A stretch of 64,000 nucleotides of DNA from the NCBI RefSeq assembly GCF_000835495.1, contig NW_015622542.1, forward strand, positions 890,485 to 954,484, read 5' to 3'. The DNA is from Cladophialophora immunda (Eukaryota > Ascomycota > Eurotiomycetes > Chaetothyriales > Herpotrichiellaceae). Both the position numbers and the translations under genes were made by a program. The notes beneath the pieces were generated by a model that was not told where the DNA came from, searched no databases, and saw nothing but the letters and a program-made list of their open reading frames with translations. Positions 6,438 to 32,783 of this stretch are shown piece after piece. How positions within the stretch are numbered: the stretch's first letter is position 1; every line of letters begins with the position of its first letter.

Positions 6438-8070
6438 TAATGTGTGATTTTCTTATGTTCTTTAATTCATGGCGTGGCGTTTGGGGACTGGTGACACCGA
6501 AAACTGCTGGACGGCTCTAGAATCACCTAGAGCCTTTGTTTTGGTGGGATGTTGACGCAGAATGTTTTGAGATGTCCGACATATACTGTACATGAGCGAA
6601 GCCAATGCCGAGAAGCAAAAATTCACTTAGATTGACGGAAAATCTGACACGTCCAACATGGTCTGGGAACTCGTGTGATCACGAAGAGGTCTGGGGGGTT
6701 TATATCATGCTAAACATTCACTGCGCCTTGTTTTCTTTTGTCCTCTCTTTCGCTTCTTCTCCATGCCACCGTCGCACAATGCAGGAACGGACGATTCGCC
6801 GAACGTGGTGTTCTTGTATTCCCTGCTGCTACCAAACATTTTGAGCTCTCCAAAGCCCGGCCACAGGGGCGCCGGCCTGATTCTTTGGTGTACAGGTGCA
6901 ACAACACAGCCAGCCGAGCAGCAATTCGAGCTGCATACTGTAGCAGCCATCATGTTGTTCAAGTGGTTAGTGTGACCAGCTCTGCTTTCATCCTTTTCTC
7001 ACGACAGACAATAGAGCATTCCGCAACAACCTGCCCATTGATCGACGCCCCGCAGGACAGAGAAGATCAAGCTCGAGATCGACTGGCGCTCATGTCTTCT
7101 GGTTTCTACCGTCCCTGTGTCCGAGTCTTTTGCCTAATCTGCAACCGATATGGCGAGCTCTGGGTTGGAGTAACACTGAGTGGGTGAGAGCTGCAGGTCG
7201 ATTGAGTGAATGAGACCACCAGAGCCTTTTCGCGGTCTCGGGAGGTTCGGTCTCAGGTCGAGAGTCGGTCGAGAGGACAGCAACGGCTAGCACTTTACGA
7301 GAGTCAGACAAGGCTATCGTGCTCAACGCGAGCGAGCCAGTGAGAGAGAGCCAGTCAGTGAGAGGCTTGATCGGAATCTTTGCATCGAGTCGAAGCTTCC
7401 CTTGGCTTCATGCATCTCGCCACGAAAGAAGAAAAAAAGAACAAGCAAGGAAACACGTTTTGCAATTGATGCAACGTTGAGCTGCACACTTCGTCTCAGC
7501 GATCGTCTTCTGCAAGGTCGACTTTCACCCTCTCCGTCCACACAAATTCCGCTTCCGCCACCTCAGTCTGAAGCTGTTATCGTGGCCAATCCCCCCGGCC
7601 GTGGGGTGCCGGTCATCCCCCCATGCTCCTCTGTGTGCGAGGAATATCCGGAGACGGAGAGAGCCACCCAGATCGCCGCAGTTTTAAGCAATCTACCCGC
7701 CTCGTATTTAGCCGGGCAGGTCCTTATTGGCGATTATGGATCTTCGGTGGACACTCTGGAACGACTCGAGAATTTCACTTCATCCACATGTCCGTGGGAA
7801 ATATGGAGAAGAGGGCGACTTTGACGTCGTTTGAGGCCCTTTGCAGTGGAGTGCTGGAGTTACATGAGGATGTCGCTGCTCAACGTGATCTCAACGCGGT
7901 GGCCATGTGGATTCTGGCCACATGAAAGGTGAGGAAATGTATAAGGGGGCTTCTATCCTGCCTGCTCCGCATGCGCCCTCGTCTTGCCCTTGTCGTTCGC
8001 CCGGCACAAAAGTTGAGATACAAGACCTCGCCGTGAACTCTCATCATTCTCACCGCCGGTGGCCTCCAAA
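6438..8070. other. Intergenic, 3' flank and permease promoter
   Basis: Between two genes on the same strand. I find no open frame with protein character. A pyrimidine-rich tract around 8030-8060 just before the permease ATG fits a 5' leader. Confidence 0.5.
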
Positions 8071-19830: not shown

Positions 19831-21446
19831 AGACGGCATCGAAGAGACCGACTATGACATCCTTTAGACTGGTGCGGCACGCCTTCACTTCACCTGTACG
19901 GAGAGGAAGGGTTATGGAATTGCAACCGGATCCAACCCTCACCCCGATCGATGCTTCAGCATTGGATATAGATCTAGGAAGCTGAAGGGATCCTACAAGC
20001 TCATTGGACTACCTGTTCCTGAGCTGCACATCAACTAATCTTGAGTTCAACAGTGAAGCCGCCGACTTTCTGGAAGTGGTTCCTCACGAGCCCGCCATGA
20101 TCGAGCTCCCTTTGAAGATATCAGGAAACCAACACTGGACACGATTGGTGTGCTTCAATCCTGATTCTGATGGTGGCAGGAGGCGGGTGGCTTCGCGGCT
20201 GGACGACCAAAATCCAGCACATGCTTCTACGACTACTTTCACGCTTCAATCCACTCAGTCGCCAAAAGGCGGAGTGGCGTGATGGTCAGCAGCTACCCAA
20301 GATTGATGTTGTCGCGCATGGCTTTTAGTTTGGGTGCAAGAATCTCAACAGACGACCGTCTCCAGCACGCAGAAGTATCGTGGTGGCGTTCATTATGTGC
20401 GTCGACTTGGCGTGAAGCGACCGATCTCACTCGGGGTCGATGGCACCAAAGGCGTGCGATGCGACTGGGTCTCTATCGCTGTCTCCGACCATCTTGAATC
20501 TCGACGCATGTCCGAGTCCAAAATTTGTTCACAGACTCCTTCAAGCTTGCCAACCTCTTCTCGCCTCCATCCATGGTTGTCACTCGCACACGAATTCAGG
20601 CAGCAATCAGCACACCATTACCAGTGAATCCGCTGGACACGCTCTGATTTTCTCACACCTCTTGCCCTTGACGTACCGCAGATGACTACAACCCTGTCGG
20701 ACGTCTAGGGCCTTCGAGGTAGGAGATGAAACAAGAGCCCGGGCTACGTCAAGATAGTGCATCCCACCTACGTCAATCCTCGATCCTATGTGCTGGGCAG
20801 CACGGAGCGACGAAGAGCGTAATACAACAGTATTTCTTTCCCTTCCCTGTTGTTTCTCTGACTCTCGCGCTCCACTGGACTGTGCCTACGCTTTGCCTGG
20901 GGCTGCCACTAAGGTAAAGTAAACAACTGGGTGGGAACCGCAGCCAAACATCCTCAACTACATGGCATAGCACATGGACTTCTGATGGAAAGAAGCGTCA
21001 GAATTGAAGCAAGGAAAGAGCCCTCCCATCGAGACCCCGTGGCTTGAACTGTCAATGTGTTATTCTGCAAATGTGCCCGTCGTGACAAAGATAGGGTCCG
21101 CACAAACGAACAGAGACTCTGATGGAGGAAGAGCACGAATCGCTGGCCACGACAGTTGTGCCTTTTTTCTGCTAGGCTTTCCCCAAGTGCAAGCAGCGTT
21201 TATCAAGTCGCTGCATTGCTCCTCGCGAAAACTTCCCTGTACAGCAGCGGAGCTGCTTATCGACTCTAAGGCGAACAAGACTCCACCCAAGGAGCGTCAG
21301 AACTTCCATGGCAAAAGCGAGATCGAGGATAGACGAATCAAAATTTTGTAGAGAGACACTGCTATTGCAAACACGGACGACAATATCAGATCTATCCGCC
21401 TCTATGACTATGTGAGACACCCTTCCCCTTGCCTTGACCGCGAGCT
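19831..21446. other. Intergenic
   Basis: No credible gene on either strand. Open frames are short, overlapping and without recognisable motifs. This stretch separates the housekeeping left side from the peptide locus. Confidence 0.45.
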
Positions 21447-22487
21447 CTAGGGTGGCAACTTCGTGGTGGGATTGAGATACGGTCCGAGATAGATATGGTC
21501 GTCGGCCCAATCCATCAACTTGTCCCAGTCGCCGCAGACGTGGGTGTTGTTGGCGCTGAAGGGCCCCAGGATGCCCTCGAAGCGCCTCTCCAGCGTCGGG
21601 TCCGCGTAGCACATGACCGACTGGCGCAGGTACTCGGTGCAGTGGAACATGTGGTCGGCGGTCAACTCGTCGGGCACGATGCCGCGGACCGAGTAGTCGA
21701 CGGCCCACTGGAGGAGCCACTGTGTATCACCGCGTTAGCAAACGGCCAGGAACAAAAGACAAGATTCTGGAAAGGAAGAAAAGCAACATACCACGCAGTG
21801 CAGCTGATGGTATCCGGCAACGCCGTAGAACTCGCCGGGCATGCTGTCAAATGCCACGCGGCCGTGGCGTGCACGATGCAGGATTTCGTGCCATGCAGGG
21901 TACGCCTTGTCCTTGAAGCCCATGAACGACTCGTTACGTTGGAAGAGCACCGTCTTTTTCGTGACTGGTCGGTTTGGCAAGTGTCAGCTCAAGCACATGT
22001 ACACGCCCACAGTTGTGTCAAAAGCACCGAGGGAAGCAGGGAAAGATGGATGGATGGAGTGGTCGATCGACAACATACATTCGGGCCCCAGGATCGGGGG
22101 CATCACGCCGGGCGTGTGGATCACTTCAGCCCTGGCCTCGGGGACGTGGCGGAAGACGTCGTTGGGCGTGACGCTGAGTTTCACCACGGCGACGGTGAGC
22201 GCCGCGCACAGGATCGAGAGCACCCCGATGCACCCGAGCAGCAGCTTCTGGATCCGGTGGGCGCGCGGGTCGCGCATCAGGTACCCTGCGCCGGCGTCCT
22301 CGTCATCTTCGTCCGGGTCCCTGCGCCGGAGCAGGTTAGCCAAGGTCGAAGACGCAGGGTGGAGACGGAGGCCGTGGCGGCGTGGCTTCTCGTCAGTGGG
22401 CGAAGTGGAAGACTGCGATGAGGAGGGGGAGTGGTGCCTGACGAGGGTGTCGTCTGAGGATCTGGGCGAGGACTCCGAAGAGGACAT
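21447..22487 (-). CDS. UstYa-like oxidase (DUF3328 family)
   Basis: Exons in transcript order are 22487-22079, 21964-21792 and 21719-21447, joining in frame to 284 residues. Residues 1-76 are a charged, serine-rich cytoplasmic tail. A single membrane anchor (KLLLGCIGVLSILCAALTVAVV) spans about 81-103. The lumenal domain carries both family-defining metal-site motifs: GYHQLHCVWLLQW and HMFHCTEYLRQSVMC (two HxxHC motifs). In known dikaritin pathways UstYa and UstYb relatives install the oxidative macrocycle on Kex2-released peptides, and DUF3328 proteins are otherwise found in several fungal metabolite clusters. The gene lies on the same strand as, and 0.9 kb from, a repeat-peptide precursor (23399-23812), which strongly suggests the substrate. 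It is the only DUF3328 gene I see in the window. Confidence 0.93.
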
Positions 22488-23398
22488 CTGGATTGACGAT
22501 TGACGACAGCGCGAAAGAAAATCAGGAAAGCGGCTCGTCGGCTACGAAGGGGAAGAGAGAGAAGGAACAGGAAAGATGGACTCTCGCTCTAGAGAGAAAT
22601 ATATGTATGTGTGTGTGTATGTGTGCTGACACAACGTGGCGGGCGAGGGACAAGTGGGGGAACACAGAACGCCCCGGGGCAAGGAAGTCGACCTGGATCT
22701 ATACGAATCACTCAATGTCTGACGTGGACGGAATGGCTGGCCGGTATAGTCTGGGTGGGATGATGCGCGTCGAACGGGCGAGCCTTGGATGCCCATCTAC
22801 GATCCAAGGAGAATGGGTGGGACGAAACTAGAATGGCTTCTATAGCTACTACGTCGCCTGGTGCTTCTCCTCCTCCTCCTCCTCCTCCTCCTCCCTTACG
22901 GATTACGAGCTCAAACCCGACTTAGGGGGCGGCAATTAGCTACAGAATGCCACGTCTTGATGCTACCAGAAGGTCACTCTACGCCGGTTTATTAGAGGAG
23001 ACTTAGAGACATGGTCTTCCACCATATGCTAGAGACTCTCCAAAGAGTGCCTCGAACTCTACCACCGAAGAAGATTCTTCTACTTTTTTTTTCTGGGTTC
23101 GTTTGAAGGCTCGCGAGAGTGCTGAATAGCATCTATTGGGCAACTTCCATCCCGCCGCCGAGGGGCGACGTCCGTGTTAAGCTCTTGCTGGAAAATTCCC
23201 CTTCCCCCCTTCCGTCCTCCCAAAGATGTAATAGTGAACGACTGACACTCGTCCCCGTTTCTCACGCCTAGCTGCGGAAAAGTGCCTTTTTTTTTTCTTG
23301 GTCAGCAGAGGAATCTGGATGGAGTATGGATAGATGGCATAGCGCAAACTCACTCGGTACTTCCCCCGTACTTGTTAGTCCGTAGATCAGGGCGTTGT
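22488..23398. other. Promoter region of the UstYa-like gene
   Basis: Lies between the stop of the peptide precursor and the ATG of the UstYa gene, both on the minus strand. It contains an A/T-rich TATA-like stretch near 22596-22605 (about 110 bp before the start), a GT-rich run near 22602-22625 and a TCC microsatellite. No gene is seen. Confidence 0.5.
22868..22894 (+). repeat. (TCC)9 microsatellite
   Basis: Nine perfect TCC units in the upstream region of the UstYa-like gene. Confidence 0.95.
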
Positions 23399-23812
23399 CT
23401 AGCGCTTGATCGTAGCGTGGTAGATGTCGGTCTCTGGAGAGCGTTTGGCAGTTGCATGATAGATGTCGGTCTCTGGGGAACGCTTGATTGTAGCATGGTA
23501 GATATCGGTCTCAGGCTCGGGCGAGCGCTTGATCGTGGCGTGGTAGATGTCGGTCTCGGGAGAGCGCTTCGCTGTCGCGTGGTAGATGTCGGTCTCTGGA
23601 GAACGCTTGATCGTAGCGTGGTAGATGTCCGTTTCACGCTTCGCGGCTCCCATCAACGCCGCAGTGCGAGCCTCTGATACTGTCGTCAGCATGGTCATCC
23701 GCCATCAGCTTCCAAAACACTCACTCAAAGCGTCGATCGCAGGGGCGGTCGGCAAGGCTGAGGCCGATGCCGCAAGCAGCGTAAGGAGAGAAGTCACTTG
23801 CAAGAACTTCAT
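23399..23812 (-). CDS. Secreted Kex2-type repeat precursor, candidate RiPP (dikaritin class)
   Basis: The ATG at 23812 starts exon 1 (23812-23725), and exon 2 runs 23673-23399 after a 51-nt intron with donor GTGAGT. An in-frame alternative acceptor 6 nt earlier would add two residues. The product is 120 residues. Residues 1-19 (MKFLQVTSLLTLLAASASA) form a textbook signal peptide with an ASA cleavage site, followed by a short leader ending in GAAKR. The rest is six repeats containing TDIYHAT, then I or A, each followed by Lys-Arg. The stop codon comes directly after the last KR. This is the layout of UstA/PhomA-type precursors, which Kex2 cuts in the Golgi before peptidases and UstY enzymes trim and cyclise the core. 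A UstYa gene is next door on the same strand. The core sequence is not one I recognise. A non-RiPP Kex2-processed secreted peptide (pheromone- or hydrophobin-like repellent type) is the main alternative. Confidence 0.9.
23402..23635 (-). repeat. Six tandem core-peptide units
   Basis: 234 nt encode six units of 11, 13, 13, 15, 13 and 13 residues, all ending in Lys-Arg. Units 2, 3, 5 and 6 begin SPE, unit 4 begins SPEPE, and unit 1 begins directly with E after the leader KR. The residue before KR runs I, A, I, I, A, I. Codons for the shared residues differ between units (for example CAC/CAT, GCT/GCG/GCC/GCA, ACG/ACA/ACT). Confidence 0.97.
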
Positions 23813-23900
23813 GTTTGCTGACGATGTGGTTCCAAACGCGACCGGTGAGATTGAAAGGAGAAGATTAAAAGTCAGGAGGCATCGAAGAGAGATTCGTCGT

Positions 23901-23907
23901 ATATATA
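23901..23907 (-). promoter_or_regulatory. TATA element of the peptide precursor gene
   Basis: TATATA-type core about 90 bp upstream of the precursor ATG on the minus strand. A canonical TATA box suits a strongly inducible small secreted-peptide gene. Confidence 0.55.
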
Positions 23908-23910
23908 CTC

Positions 23911-24486
23911 TCAGCACCCGCCACCGTTGACGGAAAGCCTGACGGGCTTGGTGTCTTTCAGAGAGGACCATCGTCGATGGTTCGTCAGATCCACTCCGTC
24001 AGCCTGGAGAGCGCCTGGGCTGTAGGCTATGACGAAGTTCATCCTTTGAATGCTCCCCTGCCCATGGCAGAGTGTCATCGCGCCGTACATTCGGGCGACA
24101 GCATTAGCTCGACGGTGTAAGTCCAGGTGGGCCGACCAAGCTGAGTTCTTTGTGACACCCATCCGCGAGAGGGCTGCATATGCTCTGGAGAGAGCCGGAT
24201 CATGGATGCTGAGCAGAGTGCGAAGAGATTCCGAGGCAAACGTCGACTTCATGCGTCCATGCCTGGGAGCAGCACCGAGTGCTTGCCGATTGCGGTCAAG
24301 TTGAATCCAAGAGGCCATGTCGTCTGAGGTTGAAAACGTACGGCCGAAGTCAAAAGGGCTCTTTGCGCCAATGAAACCCGCGGTTTCACGCTCTATTCCA
24401 TAACCATCAGCCAGGGAGTGGGACGTTCTGGAATAGCGCCACTGCGCAAGTACTCGGATGACATGGCATTGGGTGACCTCGGCAAT
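23911..24486 (-). other. Unassigned open frame upstream of the precursor
   Basis: A minus-strand frame is open for 191 codons, ending about 100 bp before the precursor ATG. It starts right after an intron-like acceptor (CTGCTAG) with a branch-point-like TGCTGAT. The first ATG is at 24318. The translation has normal protein character (for example RETAGFIGAKSPFDFGRTF and SLRTLLSIHDPALSRAYAAL), so it may be the last exon of a gene or of a decayed one. I do not recognise a family and cannot build a complete start-to-stop model, so I leave it as an open frame rather than a gene. Confidence 0.3.
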
Positions 24487-25740
24487 CTAGCAGGTATGAT
24501 CAGCAGAAACGAACGTCGCTAAGGTCGGTCGCACAGGGCTTGCTTCTCCACACAGAATGTAAGCAAAGAGGCTGCCTCCCCCTGGTGGATGGCACAAAAA
24601 GACCGGAGTCGCTCCAAGTCGATCACAGAATGGCGGGCGCAAAGGTCTATCCAAGATAGGCTAGCTGGATGCACTCTGGCGCTATGGTCTGTACATTGCA
24701 TCAGCTCACGCAGTTGAGAAGACCTGTTGTCTGTCGGATGTGGACCTCGTTCACGATTCTAGACCTCTAACGCTGTGTCACCTCGGTTGAGCTCCAAGTT
24801 GGCGCCACCGAGACTCAGTACACGGTCTGCGTGGGACTTGAGGTGGCGACGAGCTCGACAAGGTCTCGATGAGGGCACACAGCCTAGTTTCCTCTATATT
24901 CACAGTCAAGGTCGGCTCACAGTTTTGAAGATTCGAGTATCCTGTGATGCCGTTTGTAACCCATTCTGCCCCCAATGCGTCTCCACCAAAAGGATTCAAG
25001 GCAGCTCCAACGAAATCAAGGCCATTGGGCCAAGCTCAGACAACAGCTTATGCATCGAATCAACCATGACGGATCAAAGAAGCCACTAGGCAAGCGAGAA
25101 AATGTATTGGATGTGGTATTATGTAGAAGTATCTGCGAATATAGCTCTATGTCGTGTGAGAAAAGGGGCCACAGCCCTTTCCGTGACACGCTAGGCCGCG
25201 CTGGGAAGGACCAGAGGCGTCGGGCCCCCGGCCACTCCCGAGGTCTTGTCCACCGGGTATATACGGGGATGTGACTGTATTAGGAAAAAGGGCACGCGAA
25301 AGCCGAGCGAGCAGGGCGGTGTAAGGCGTCGTCGAGATGTTCTTTCGACTGCCGACGTAGTCTGTTGTCGCTCAGAGCTCCTTTGGGGGTGTGGTTATGC
25401 AGCGATATCTCGTCCTACCTCGCTATCTCGCTCCTGAAAGCCCTTGTGAACAGCCTGGTGGTTGCAGAGAAGACCTCCTCGGCGCGGATACCCGCATTGA
25501 GGGCCTGAAAACGCCTCCACAAAGGATTCTTGGGGCCGTGAGCATTCCAAAACGGCGAGGATGTGCGAAGCTGACCTGTCACCGGCGCGCCGACGAGATC
25601 CATAGCGGTGGAGACGCAGGACAGCAAGCAGCAATGCGGGAATCCGGTTCAGCAGGTCGACTCGTACATATGGACTCCTCGCCCAATATTAGCTTATCAC
25701 CCATTCCCTCAGAACCATGGTCGCTACCAGCTGACCGATC
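24487..25740. other. Intergenic or decayed coding region
   Basis: On the minus strand between about 25068 and 24500, fragments with coding character occur in different frames. One is an ATG at 25068 (MVDSMHKLLSELGP) that stops after 23 codons. Another is a frame reading NPFGGDALGAEWVTNGITGY. They do not join into one protein by convincing splicing. A TATA-like GTATATAC lies near 25256-25263. This could be an unspliced gene I cannot resolve or a pseudogene. Confidence 0.35.
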
Positions 25741-26775
25741 ATGAGCAGACATTCCCGGATCGTGCTCTTCCTCGCCCTGGTCCTGGTCGACTTCATTTGC
25801 TGCTCAGCAAGCCCCACCTCCCGATGCTGGCTTGACTACTCCCAGATTCCTTACACCGCACTCCCGCGCGACCTGGAGTTGGACTATGGGACTACAGCGA
25901 GAGAACTTGGTTCTGGCACATCGGGCTCTGTGCTTCTGCTTCTGCGGCACGCCGACAATGCGACGGTAGCGGTCAAGCGGTTCCACAACGCCGCCGAAGA
26001 TGAAGATCGACATGACCTTTTGACTCAAAGAATCAAGCTTGAGTATCATCTCGGAACTCTCCTGAACGGCCATCCTGGCATCTCAGAGTCTTTTGACCTC
26101 CTCCTGGAAGAAGGTTCCTTGACCTGGTTTCTGGTGACGGAGTTCTGTCCCCGGAGCCTGGCAAAGGAGCATCGATCAATCGGCGCGCAGTCGCTCACAG
26201 AGATATTCCGCAGCGTTGTCGAAGCCGTCGAGCATATGCATGCTCTGGGCATCGCACATGGAGATCTCAAGCTAGAGAACGTCCTTTTGACGGCCGACGG
26301 ACGACCCAAGCTGATCGACTTTGGTGCCGCCACCTTCTCCGGCTGTCCCACAGAAACCCCAGGCTCGGCAGACGCGGTCAACGTCGTCCCTGGAGACTAC
26401 GGCACCACGGCTTACATGCCGCCTGACGTCTTCACGCAGCTCGAGTTCGACAAGGCGAAAGCCGATGTGTGGGCCCTCGGGGTTTTGTTCTTTGCCATGA
26501 TGACGGGATCGGTTCCATGGTCGTCTGCTTCAATCGACGACCCCCGCTACCAAGCCTACGTGACACCGCAGCCCCTCGATGACGGGTTCAGCTCACACCA
26601 TTGTCCTAACTGGGACAAATCAACGGTTCGATTTCACACTTGTTCCACTGGAGCCATGCACCTCCTACAACGACTGCCGGCTAACGCAAGGGACATGGTT
26701 GCCTCGATGCTAGTGCCTGAACCACAGGATCGGCCGTCTGTCCAGACTTTATTGGCGTCTTTGTCCCAGAGATAA
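25741..26775 (+). CDS. Protein kinase with signal-peptide-like N terminus
   Basis: A single-exon frame of 344 residues from an ATG preceded by an in-frame stop 9 bp upstream. Residues 1-24 (basic SRHSR, then IVLFLALVLVDFICC, then SASP) look like a signal peptide or membrane anchor. A complete Ser/Thr kinase domain follows: glycine loop LGSGTSGSV, VAVKR with Lys79, HGDLKLENV with Asp175 (HGD instead of HRD), DFGAA at 193-195, a PPDV replacement of APE, and the KADVWALGVLFFAMMTGSVPW block. The catalytic residues are all present, so it should be active. The overall style is that of the fungal Hal4/Npr group. If the N terminus is real, the kinase would act in the secretory pathway. An upstream exon ending at an AG near 25749 is an alternative start model. 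It converges with the kinase-like gene at 27542-28780. Confidence 0.82.
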   Translation: MSRHSRIVLFLALVLVDFICCSASPTSRCWLDYSQIPYTALPRDLELDYGTTARELGSGTSGSVLLLLRHADNATVAVKRFHNAAEDEDRHDLLTQRIKLEYHLGTLLNGHPGISESFDLLLEEGSLTWFLVTEFCPRSLAKEHRSIGAQSLTEIFRSVVEAVEHMHALGIAHGDLKLENVLLTADGRPKLIDFGAATFSGCPTETPGSADAVNVVPGDYGTTAYMPPDVFTQLEFDKAKADVWALGVLFFAMMTGSVPWSSASIDDPRYQAYVTPQPLDDGFSSHHCPNWDKSTVRFHTCSTGAMHLLQRLPANARDMVASMLVPEPQDRPSVQTLLASLSQR

Positions 26776-29408: not shown

Positions 29409-30440
29409 CTACAGAACAAGGCGCACTTTTAACTTGTCACCCTCCTCTATCTCTTTCTGCCTCGAAAGCAGCTCCTCCATGTCCCACGTACAGCTTAGAT
29501 ACCTCCCGGCGAGCCATTCCCGTCTTTCGCAAGTGAGAAAGGCGATAGTGTCCCCGGCCAATGACGGACTGTCCGTAAAAGCTGAAACGAGGTCAACATC
29601 CCAAATGATCTTGCAATACTGGTTGTGGGCGACTCACTCGCGTGTGTTTGTTTAGGCATTGCTTCGGCCAGCTGCGTCATGACCCCGCCAGGATGCACCG
29701 AGAAAGCGATCAGTCCCTGTTTCCTCTGTTCCACCAGTAGAAACTCGGTGAACTTCAAGGCGGCGAATTTGGAGGTCCCATATGCACTCGCCTCGGGGCG
29801 GAGGTTGTGCGCTGCCACAGAGTTGACATTGACAAGTGTCTTCAGGCCGTCCGGCGTCGAAGTCAAGAGGGGTGTAAAATATTTGCACATGAGGAAGATT
29901 CCTCTTAAATTGACTTCAAACGTCTTCCACCACGAATCGTTGTTGGCTTCCACTATGGGCAGTGCCGGTGTCATGAACCCGGCGTTGTTCACCAAGACGT
30001 CCAGCCTGGGTGAAGACTCGTGCACTTTGGCGGCTGCGGCTGCAACTGACGCATCATCCGTCACGTCCAAATGGAGCAGGAGAACTGTGGGAGGAGGTCT
30101 TCCGTATTTCTTCGCGGCATTTTCGATCTCAATGTTGACAGGAGGATCCCCAAAGCCGTCAGGACATCCTAGCCCAATGAAAGACGCCCCAGATTGAGCA
30201 AATGATATGGCAATCGCTTTCCCGATCCCACGATTGCCTCCAGAAACGAAAACAGCCCTTCCCGTATGATTCGATTTGGCTCTGGAATCAATGAAAGGGT
30301 ACGTGTCGTTGTGGATCGTCTGAGTGAAGTTTGCACCTATTCGTGGTCACCAGTCTATTCGTCGCCGACGGCATCTTATCTTGCAAAGGACCTGTGGCCA
30401 ACTCACCATTTGGAGGCGCGAAAGGTGGGTACGCTGCCAT
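29409..30440 (-). CDS. Short-chain dehydrogenase/reductase (classical SDR)
   Basis: Exons 30440-30407, 30336-29638 and 29581-29409 join in frame to 301 residues, normal for fungal classical SDRs. The tiny first exon encodes MAAYPPFAPPN. The joint restores the fungal SDR lead-in GANFTQTIHNDTYPFID. The cofactor loop is VSGGNRGIG (TGxxxGxG class), NNAG is at LVNNAGF, the catalytic Ser is in NVNSVAAHN, and Tyr/Lys in YGTSK. The C-terminal exon supplies SLAGDTIAFLTCERREWLAG and TWDMEEL, as in fungal relatives, so no segment is missing. The substrate is unknown. It oxidises or reduces an alcohol/ketone with NAD(P)(H), probably in the cytosol. It sits between the kinase-like gene and a Zn2Cys6 regulator. 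Confidence 0.93.
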
Positions 30441-31296: not shown

Positions 31297-32783
31297 ATGG
31301 TTGGCATCCCAGGGAAGTCACAAGGTTGTAATACCTGCAGACGAAGGAAGGTCAGAGTAAGTACGAGCTCGCTCTGTCGCCTGCAGCCTTCTAAACCGAT
31401 TAGTGTGACCTCCAAAAGCCGCTGTGTCGAAGATGTATCTCATCGCACAGACAGTGCGAAGGCTATGAAAGATACCCGGTCTTCATCAACCGGGGCCAGA
31501 CAGGCCTCCAGAGACGACGACGCCTAGAGGAAGCCAGGTCCACGCCGCCACAGCCTGCCCTACAGAATCAAAACACTATTGTCTTCTCCACGCCCTCCCC
31601 TTCGCAGGTCAACGAAGATCAACTTATATCCTCTTTCTGGGAAGGTTACTCCACTGTTTCACCTCAGTACTCTAGAACGAGGGAACCCGCTTGGCTGTAT
31701 CATTCGATCAATATCTCAGCATCTATAACTCCGTTGAGACTAGCTCTTCTTTCTCTCGCATATACCCGAACGGGCAGACTCCAAAACAACCAAACACTGA
31801 TTCGGAAAGGGCAAGAAATCTACGGTCGAGTTCTTCGATTGACGCAAAATGCTCTGTACGATCCACAGCTGATGCGTCATGATGAACTACTTGCAGCGGC
31901 TCGATGCATGGTCCTGTATGAAGCTTTTGAGTCGACGTCCGAGGACATGGCTGCCTGGCAAAGCCATATCATTGGTATAGCCCGAATTATGCAGCTTCGA
32001 GGCCCTGACCACCACCGTGACCCTTTGCCCAAATCCATCCTCGAATCTATGCGTTACAACGCCATGATAGTCTGTCTCGTCAAGAGGGAATCGTCCTTTT
32101 TCGGCAACCCGGATTGGTTGATGCAGCCCTGGGCCGACACATCCAAAGATCTTGATCAAAGGCTTTACGACTATGGCTTTACGCTATCTAATCTCTTCCA
32201 GAGGGGTGAAGCGGCTTACCATCGTTCGGATCGAACAGAGATCCTTCGCATCCTGGAACGGATCAGAAATAGCTATCTGGGCATGACAACTCTCAACGAG
32301 GAACTGCTGGCCGTGCAAACAGAAGACTACCCCGTGAACGAGCATGCCCTGAATGAACTACACGTCGGAGAAACGACTTTTGCCATTACTTCAGCAATTC
32401 TCCTTGCCCTCGATCTGTCATTTTCCATTTATGCGGCGGCACTGATTGCGAAGTGTCCGGACGACTTTTTCACCGAACACCAGGATCTGCTTGCAGAAAT
32501 TTCTTCGCACACGGACGAGTCACGCAGACGGGACTTGTCAAAGCAGGTCCTCTGGCTTCTTCAACATTCTCTACAGACCCGATTCGAGTATTCGCGACCC
32601 AGAATCATCTTCCCACTGAACGTGGTGAGGTGGGAGCTAAGGGCAATCCCTGAGTACAAGGTCCAAGTACAAGCGCTGTTTGAAACCATTGCTTCGGGAA
32701 ATCAGGTTCGCATTGCCCGCAGTGTGCAGAATGCTGGCTGCTCGACCATGCCTAGCATTATCTCGAAGGAGAGTGAAAGCTGA
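31297..32783 (+). CDS. Zn2Cys6 transcription factor
   Basis: Exons 31297-31356 and 31404-32783 give 479 residues. The 47-nt intron splits the zinc cluster, a common feature in ascomycetes. Exon 1 encodes GCNTCRRRKVR, and exon 2 continues CDLQKPLCRRC and CEGY, giving all six cysteines. The rest is the helical fungal-specific transcription factor region (Fungal_trans_2/DUF3468 type), with LRLALLSLAYTRTGRLQNN and CMVLYEAFESTSEDMAAWQS. It binds DNA in the nucleus. Its position, divergent from the SDR and beside RTA1 and MDR genes, makes it a candidate pathway-specific regulator, which is inference. Confidence 0.92.

Follow-up and report, generated by a model that had tools for sequence, protein, structure and literature searches.

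A 64,000-nucleotide stretch of the Cladophialophora immunda genome (hereafter the window) carries, on its minus strand, a real and intact gene for a putatively secreted precursor with six near-identical peptide cores, and the neighboring gene on the same strand, 911 bp downstream, encodes a UstYa-family (DUF3328) oxidase (Table 1). In our judgment, the two genes probably form a minimal pathway in which a secreted peptide is made on the ribosome and oxidized; the product would be a dikaritin-like RiPP whose N terminus is trimmed in pheromone style. The pair itself is real; the core family is new and its processing signature unusual, within a kind of system, the UstYa-linked Kex2-repeat precursor, that is known.

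Table 1. Features of the precursor-oxidase region, its surroundings in the window, and three further KR-repeat precursors near UstYa matches of the same genome (positions of the latter are those of the extracted regions)
Feature	Position	Strand	Description
Precursor gene	23399..23812	-	Two exons, 120 aa; from sequence and splice test
Precursor exon 1	23812-23725	-	ATG start, 88 nt
Precursor intron	23724-23674	-	51 nt, GTGAGT...CAG
Precursor exon 2	23673-23399	-	Ends CGC TAG, stop included
Signal peptide MKFLQVTSLLTLLAASASA	23756..23812	-	Judged by eye
TATA-box-like site TATATATA	23900..23907	-	~90 bp upstream of ATG 23812; read from the sequence
Core 1, ETDIYHATI	23609..23635	-	Spacer none
Core 2, ETDIYHATA	23570..23596	-	Spacer SP
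Core 3, ETDIYHATI	23531..23557	-	Spacer SP
Core 4, ETDIYHATI	23486..23512	-	Spacer SPEP, two X-Pro dipeptides
Core 5, ETDIYHATA	23447..23473	-	Spacer SP
Core 6, ETDIYHATI	23408..23434	-	Spacer SP; KR and stop follow
UstYa-family (DUF3328) oxidase gene PV07_02663	21447..22487	-	284 aa, three exons
UstYa exons	22487-22079, 21964-21792, 21719-21447	-	Splice model equals deposited protein P0003
HxxHC motif HQLHC	21795..21809	-	H189, H192, and C193 invariant in 8/8 aligned sequences
Second motif HC...LRQ...C (HCTEYLRQSVMC)	21609..21644	-	HC in 7/8 aligned sequences
Trehalose synthase-like gene	~16.7-18.4 kb		Domain match
Protein kinase	25741-26775	+	Pkinase 144 bits, apparently single-exon
SDR	29495-30070		Domain match
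Fungal transcription-factor domain	31734-32783		Domain match
L047 precursor	4763-4101 (G000:C5, ~4.22 Mb)	-	201 residues, ten units; between two UstYa matches
L051 precursor	7599-7997 (G000:C1, ~8.17 Mb)	+	Near UstYa matches; cores ESNLFGWLIAVADYDGED...
L052 precursor	2018-1740 (G000:C3, ~3.81 Mb)	-	EP/DP, then S-x-x-G-x-x-T-A-D-W-L-E

The original prediction, which had placed the gene at 23399..23812 with an intron and a stop directly after the last Lys-Arg (KR), was correct in coordinates, strand, and layout, and the six near-identical KR-closed peptides that it had described behind a signal peptide and a KR-ended leader were seen as such. By eye, the N terminus looks like a typical signal peptide (K2, a hydrophobic stretch, and an ASA end), and it is alignable with relatives from Aureobasidium pullulans, and the pro-region closes with KR. 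When in-frame GT-AG introns of 40 to 120 nt were enumerated by script, four options were obtained, of which the 51-nt intron reproduces, residue for residue, the sequence on record for a different C. immunda isolate (P0001). This protein, CLAIMM_10348 isoform 2, has the identical 120 residues and the same splice, plus 53 upstream residues that begin at ATG 23971. That upstream start is doubtful and was rejected as the true one, since the TATA-like TATATATA, with a CT-rich stretch 3' of it, lies downstream of ATG 23971 and since A. pullulans P0012 begins at the corresponding methionine of its MKF motif; the second A. pullulans relative, P0011, begins six residues before this methionine.

The protein cluster of P0001 has no second member, from which it appears that no precursor protein is annotated in the window's own assembly; the gene is thus annotated in one C. 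immunda isolate and apparently unannotated in the other. Two isolates have been sequenced according to PMC5595782, in which the CLAIMM tags are those of CBS 110551, and we infer that the window's assembly is isolate CBS 83496. The missing annotation would suit an artefact, i.e., a repetitive open reading frame without a working gene. This reading is extremely improbable and already largely refuted by the pattern of silent sites described below, by the canonical splice signals, by the A. pullulans relatives with the same leader (DALKAR) and core, and by the deposition of the spliced protein for the second isolate, whose gene set was predicted from homology and strand-specific RNA-seq, as stated in PMC5595782; the "TPM >= 0" support mentioned there is uninformative for any single gene.

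Each of the six precursor units follows the formula (X-Pro)0-2-ETDIYHAT[I/A]-Lys-Arg. Tyr is present in all six cores, while Cys, Gly, Pro, and Trp are absent from them, and the computed [M+H]+ values of the linear cores are 1062.510 (ETDIYHATI) and 1020.463 (ETDIYHATA). The tandem array received TRF scores of 375 (period 123) and 222 (period 39). Among the six 33-nt copies of core plus KR, 10 of the 12 variable columns are third codon positions (hypergeometric P = 7e-6, for copies that are not independent) and 10 of the 11 residues are invariant; nearly all differences between the copies are silent, and the peptide has been kept. Moreover, a scan for at least three uninterrupted KR-bounded units sharing a 4-mer in one open frame, a design that misses intron-split precursors, returned the precursor ORF as its only match in the 64-kb window, with zero matches in the 60,000 window bases outside 21001-25000 and zero in 20 mononucleotide shuffles; the array is more than chance. 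As for paralogues, the C. immunda genome yielded three weak matches only (L025 to L027), which were dismissed, one being a tandem repeat and the other two proteins that are Arg-rich or of low complexity. The tandem repeat (L025, 1474-1737) is near-perfect, has a period of ~39 bases, and lies in an AT-rich region whose distance to the end of contig C3 is ~5 kb; it is unrelated to the precursor.

To find relatives, 5.8 billion proteins were searched with the precursor, which returned only P0001 and the environmental sequence P0002 (2 of 2240 candidates, E up to 10), and a two-sequence profile built from both added A. pullulans P0011 (2.4e-23) and P0012 (1.4e-11) (4 of 4339 candidates). P0011 and P0012 align with the precursor at MKF, at DALKAR in the pro-region, and in the core. 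The A. pullulans and metagenomic precursors have the same E-x-D-[I/L]-Y cores, and every complete unit of P0002, P0011, and P0012 fits the Tyr-containing core pattern, in which Tyr is a required letter. A search of plasmids gave only two weak bacterial matches to the precursor (27-29% identity, E 7e-4 and 0.2). Across the 18 units of the four precursors, the residue before Tyr (-1) is Ile in 16 and Leu in 2, and His follows it (+1) in 16, being replaced by Arg or Tyr in two of the four P0002 units; Asp at -2 and Thr at +3 are fixed by the search pattern, yet are present in every complete unit. Position +4, in turn, is Ile, Ala, Tyr, Ser, or a basic residue. The original prediction had pointed to Ile at -1 and +4 as a sign that a different ring or bond is possible; the former is found in all six C. 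immunda copies, whereas the latter is Ile in four and Ala in two. Considering that +4 is not conserved, and is Tyr in most A. pullulans units, Ile+4 is an unlikely ring partner and was dropped, while the largely conserved Ile-1 and His+1 are possible partners of Tyr, judging from the alignment.

The earlier description of the repeats was accurate, but it had overlooked the X-Pro spacers that stand before the cores. In addition to those of C. immunda (Table 1), spacers were SP, TP, PP, and none in P0002 (after one partial unit), EAAP, none, EASP, EAAP, and none in P0011, and EAAP, EAAP, and none in P0012. Thus, in 18 of 18 units the spacer has 0, 2, or 4 residues, each dipeptide ending in Pro or Ala, although the core pattern fixes E, D, I/L, Y, and T, P0011 and P0012 come from the same species, and the units are not independent. 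Five of the 18 units are spacer-free, a core that follows a spacer always begins with Glu, and the residues ahead of the spacer are KR in 15 cases; the other three sites are not dibasic, being ER in the first unit of both P0011 and P0012 and KC in one P0002 unit. The letters vary by lineage (SP and SPEP; SP, TP, and PP; EAAP and EASP), while the dipeptide rule is constant. Such a STE13 signature was described in a 2019 survey (PMC6339444) as generally only dedicated to alpha-pheromones in Ascomycota, was taken there as a mark of peptide hormones, and was reported absent from the ascomycete precursors of toxic cyclic tetrapeptides and epichloecyclins. In PMC7329392, on the other hand, DUF3328 genes are linked to 17 of 76 precursors with homology to basidiomycete precursors of the STE13 type, so the combination of STE13 spacers with UstYa linkage is unusual, not unheard of. 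Domain searches found that the C. immunda genome encodes both kexin-type (P_proprotein) and DPPIV-type domains.

The oxidase gene PV07_02663 was likewise overlooked by the original prediction, whose description of the precursor itself held. It reaches 72.8 bits against the Pfam UstYa model, compared with a cut-off of 25. HxxHC is a hallmark of the UstYa family, and it is conserved here (Table 1). The same motif is also mentioned for the family in PMC12048977. The one aligned sequence without the second HC is P0010 (180 aa), which is divergent there. The structure model of the protein is poor (mean pLDDT 43), with stretches above 80 in helix 74-106 only, which by its place is likely a membrane anchor; a search for solved structural relatives yielded none, with two chance matches (E 0.11 and 0.19), and the literature on UstYa structures held nothing to the point among the matches listed.

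At E up to 0.001, the oxidase search retained 8 of 901 candidates, from C. immunda, Fonsecaea monophora, F. erecta, C. bantiana, A. pullulans, A. subglaciale, and two environmental sources, and viral and prokaryote contigs yielded no confirmed relative. Over residues 108-284, the C. immunda oxidase shares 97-98% identity with its counterparts from F. monophora, F. erecta, and C. bantiana and 72% with that from A. pullulans; in the N-terminal part, identity to the first three is 64-66%. The A. pullulans protein is probably the ortholog of PV07_02663, because the best other matches of the latter within its own genome, which holds 22 UstYa matches in 10 loci by manual grouping, reach no more than 44% identity across 50 residues and 33% across 83. 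C. immunda belongs to the Chaetothyriales, while A. pullulans belongs to another class, the Dothideomycetes; the latter fungus is used in biotechnology and can opportunistically infect people. The oxidase thus occurs in Chaetothyriales (Cladophialophora and Fonsecaea) and in Aureobasidium and not between them, among eight matches of a word-limited search; either an ancient loss or a transfer from one lineage of black yeast-like fungi to another might explain this distribution. The precursor-UstYa linkage is seen in one genome, that of C. immunda, and the A. pullulans precursor and oxidase entries come from different strains (tags D6D01, D6D28, and D6C79). For the oxidase carriers Fonsecaea and C. 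bantiana, no precursor was found in the protein searches, in which small genes may be unannotated; considering the word-based searching and the missing annotation of small genes, absence of relatives elsewhere is weak evidence.

The surroundings of the pair include kinase, SDR, transcription factor, and trehalose synthase-like genes (Table 1), with no evidence linking any of them to it. The kinase ORF opens with a hydrophobic, signal-like stretch, which is odd for a kinase. A tyrosinase domain was found nowhere in the window, as none of the 11 matches in the genome falls there.

Compared with known systems, the precursor is of the KEP type, with several (six) near-identical units in dibasic bounds, all KR. 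It shares with the dikaritins (ustiloxin, phomopsin, and asperipin-2a) an apparent signal peptide, Kex2-bounded cores with Tyr, and an adjacent UstYa-family gene, and the dikaritin-precursor architecture proposed from the first reading is thereby strengthened by an oxidase gene close by. PMC7329392 indicates that UstYa/DUF3328 proteins are needed for cyclization of ustiloxins, asperipin-2a, and phomopsins, that the count of DUF3328 genes is highest right beside the precursor, asperipin-2a having a single one, and that cyclization of ustiloxin and phomopsin requires a tyrosinase. The system differs from the dikaritins in its precursor core, E-[S/T]-D-I-Y-H-A-T, in its X-Pro/X-Ala spacers, and in a window free of tyrosinase. 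It falls outside the ustiloxin/phomopsin group, whose core is given as E-D-Y-X-I in PMC6339444, in agreement with the distinct core claimed originally. PMC7329392 also describes KEP types G-3 and P-3, which occur in Cladophialophora as well as in further genera; 57 of 64 and 4 of 7 of them, respectively, have a DUF3328 gene close by. These are likewise repeat precursors, but G-3 is marked by di-histidine and P-3 by Trp with Pro, and the C. immunda core has neither. A published identical core, named beforehand as a finding that would count against novelty, was not found in the text of 5.39 million open papers; the matches to the core strings were part of a person's name or papers that, by title, do not concern fungal peptides. 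By title or start of abstract, none of the matches listed described a C. immunda RiPP or this precursor. Because supplementary tables lay outside the literature search, the precursor may already sit among the 7878 KEPs of PMC7329392.

Three of the nine other UstYa loci of the genome also hold a KR-repeat precursor (9.9-kb regions around loci, 10 regions in all). As a control, 20 loci totaling 62,104 bases, drawn from pattern, protein, and family matches rather than at random and excluding the UstYa loci and the loci of the window pair (L010, L023, L024, L036, and L037), gave one match, an Arg-rich protein in L027, a locus that had already come up as a weak match to the precursor. The L047 precursor resembles that of the window in its UstYa linkage, in an intron soon after the signal peptide (manual splice choice), and in an X-Pro ladder of whole dipeptides followed by E-T, while its core is unrelated: spacers of EP, EPEP, DPEP, or EPEPEP, i.e., one to three (D/E)-Pro dipeptides, precede ETGY...GN, the cores are ETGYIAVSGN and variants, and nine of the units end in KKR, whereas the tenth runs into the stop. 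In L051, DA or DT follows the KR sites and the cores are preceded by DAI or DTL. The UstYa match near L052 has internal stops, and the ADW stretch of that precursor recalls the -AADW peptides of mushrooms described in PMC9769878.

Because of the STE13-type spacers, a pheromone or hormone reading stays open, namely, that unmodified ETDIYHATI/A is released by Kex2, Kex1, and Ste13 as a linear secreted hormone or mating-type pheromone and that the UstYa gene is coincidental or serves another substrate. The architecture matches that of alpha-pheromone precursors in its apparent signal peptide, pro-region, repeats, and KR followed by a variable number of X-P/X-A dipeptides, the alpha-pheromone signature of PMC6339444; moreover, the core is conserved across two classes, and the genome encodes a STE2-type receptor (44 bits). 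The same genome showed no tandem WCxxxGQxC array (8 scattered matches, versus 2 for a reversed control pattern), so no other pheromone is known for it, although one of other sequence is possible. We nevertheless regard this reading as rather unlikely. According to PMC7329392, a link to UstYa/DUF3328 is missing for 100% of the yeast-type pheromones and for 98.6% of the remaining fungal ones, whereas the C. immunda gene adjoins a UstYa gene, and the core is without known pheromone motifs, having neither the paired Cys nor the PYGXPXG that PMC6339444 shows for Dothideomycete pheromones. Furthermore, a ladder of the same X-Pro kind occurs in L047, which is located between two UstYa matches and has another core; the ladder is therefore no mark of a single pheromone. 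Tandem repeats with Kex2 sites would also suit bulk production of a structural or surface peptide, like the Rep1 repellents of Ustilago, next to a coincidental UstYa gene. This is very improbable, given that Rep1 is without the STE13 signature in what PMC6339444 reports, that the short core hardly differs between classes, and that a gene would fall by chance within 1 kb of any of ~10 UstYa loci in 42.2 Mb with a probability of roughly 0.1% (by our own arithmetic and grouping).

The dikaritin-like RiPP with pheromone-style trimming is, in our view, the probable explanation. It draws support from the array and its silent variation, the second isolate, the UstYa neighbor, the A. pullulans relatives, the uniform spacer rule, the kexin- and DPPIV-type domains, and the other UstYa loci with KR-repeat precursors; against it stand a linkage seen in a single genome, the missing precursor matches in Fonsecaea and C. 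bantiana, the three sites that are not dibasic, the variation at His+1, and the window free of tyrosinase. The RiPP candidacy put forward originally gains support from the KEP architecture and the UstYa neighbor, while the oxidative bond is something that we infer. In this proposed pathway, the precursor would enter the ER/Golgi and meet the oxidase in the secretory pathway, where the UstYa-type enzyme would act on the Tyr of E-x-D-I-Y-H-A-T, most likely to form a crosslink of the Tyr side chain. Since UstYa relatives can also hydroxylate or chlorinate, as mentioned in PMC12048977, UstYa does not imply a ring, and the enzyme may hydroxylate instead. Kex2 would cleave after Lys-Arg, Kex1 would take off the basic residues, and a Ste13-like dipeptidyl aminopeptidase would strip the X-Pro dipeptides, so that all six copies would converge on ETDIYHATI (four) or ETDIYHATA (two). 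Signaling, toxicity, or defense are candidate uses of such a product. One specific version, in our view unlikely, is a crosslinked peptide hormone, i.e., a signal oxidized by UstYa, trimmed like an alpha-pheromone, and retained together with its oxidase by black yeast-like fungi from two classes.

In this system, the core is defined, a single oxidase gene is linked, relatives exist in A. pullulans, and exact masses are available. Together with at least one more precursor in the same genome, it appears to be an exception to the rule given in PMC6339444, as a UstYa-linked precursor that bears the STE13 signature. Should the trimming be real, any product mass calculated with the spacer retained would be wrong. 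If the crosslinked hormone proved true, it would join the cyclic mycotoxin-type RiPPs and the STE13-processed pheromones, two systems that have been treated separately, and would suggest an endogenous signaling role, rather than a toxic one, for some dikaritin-like peptides.
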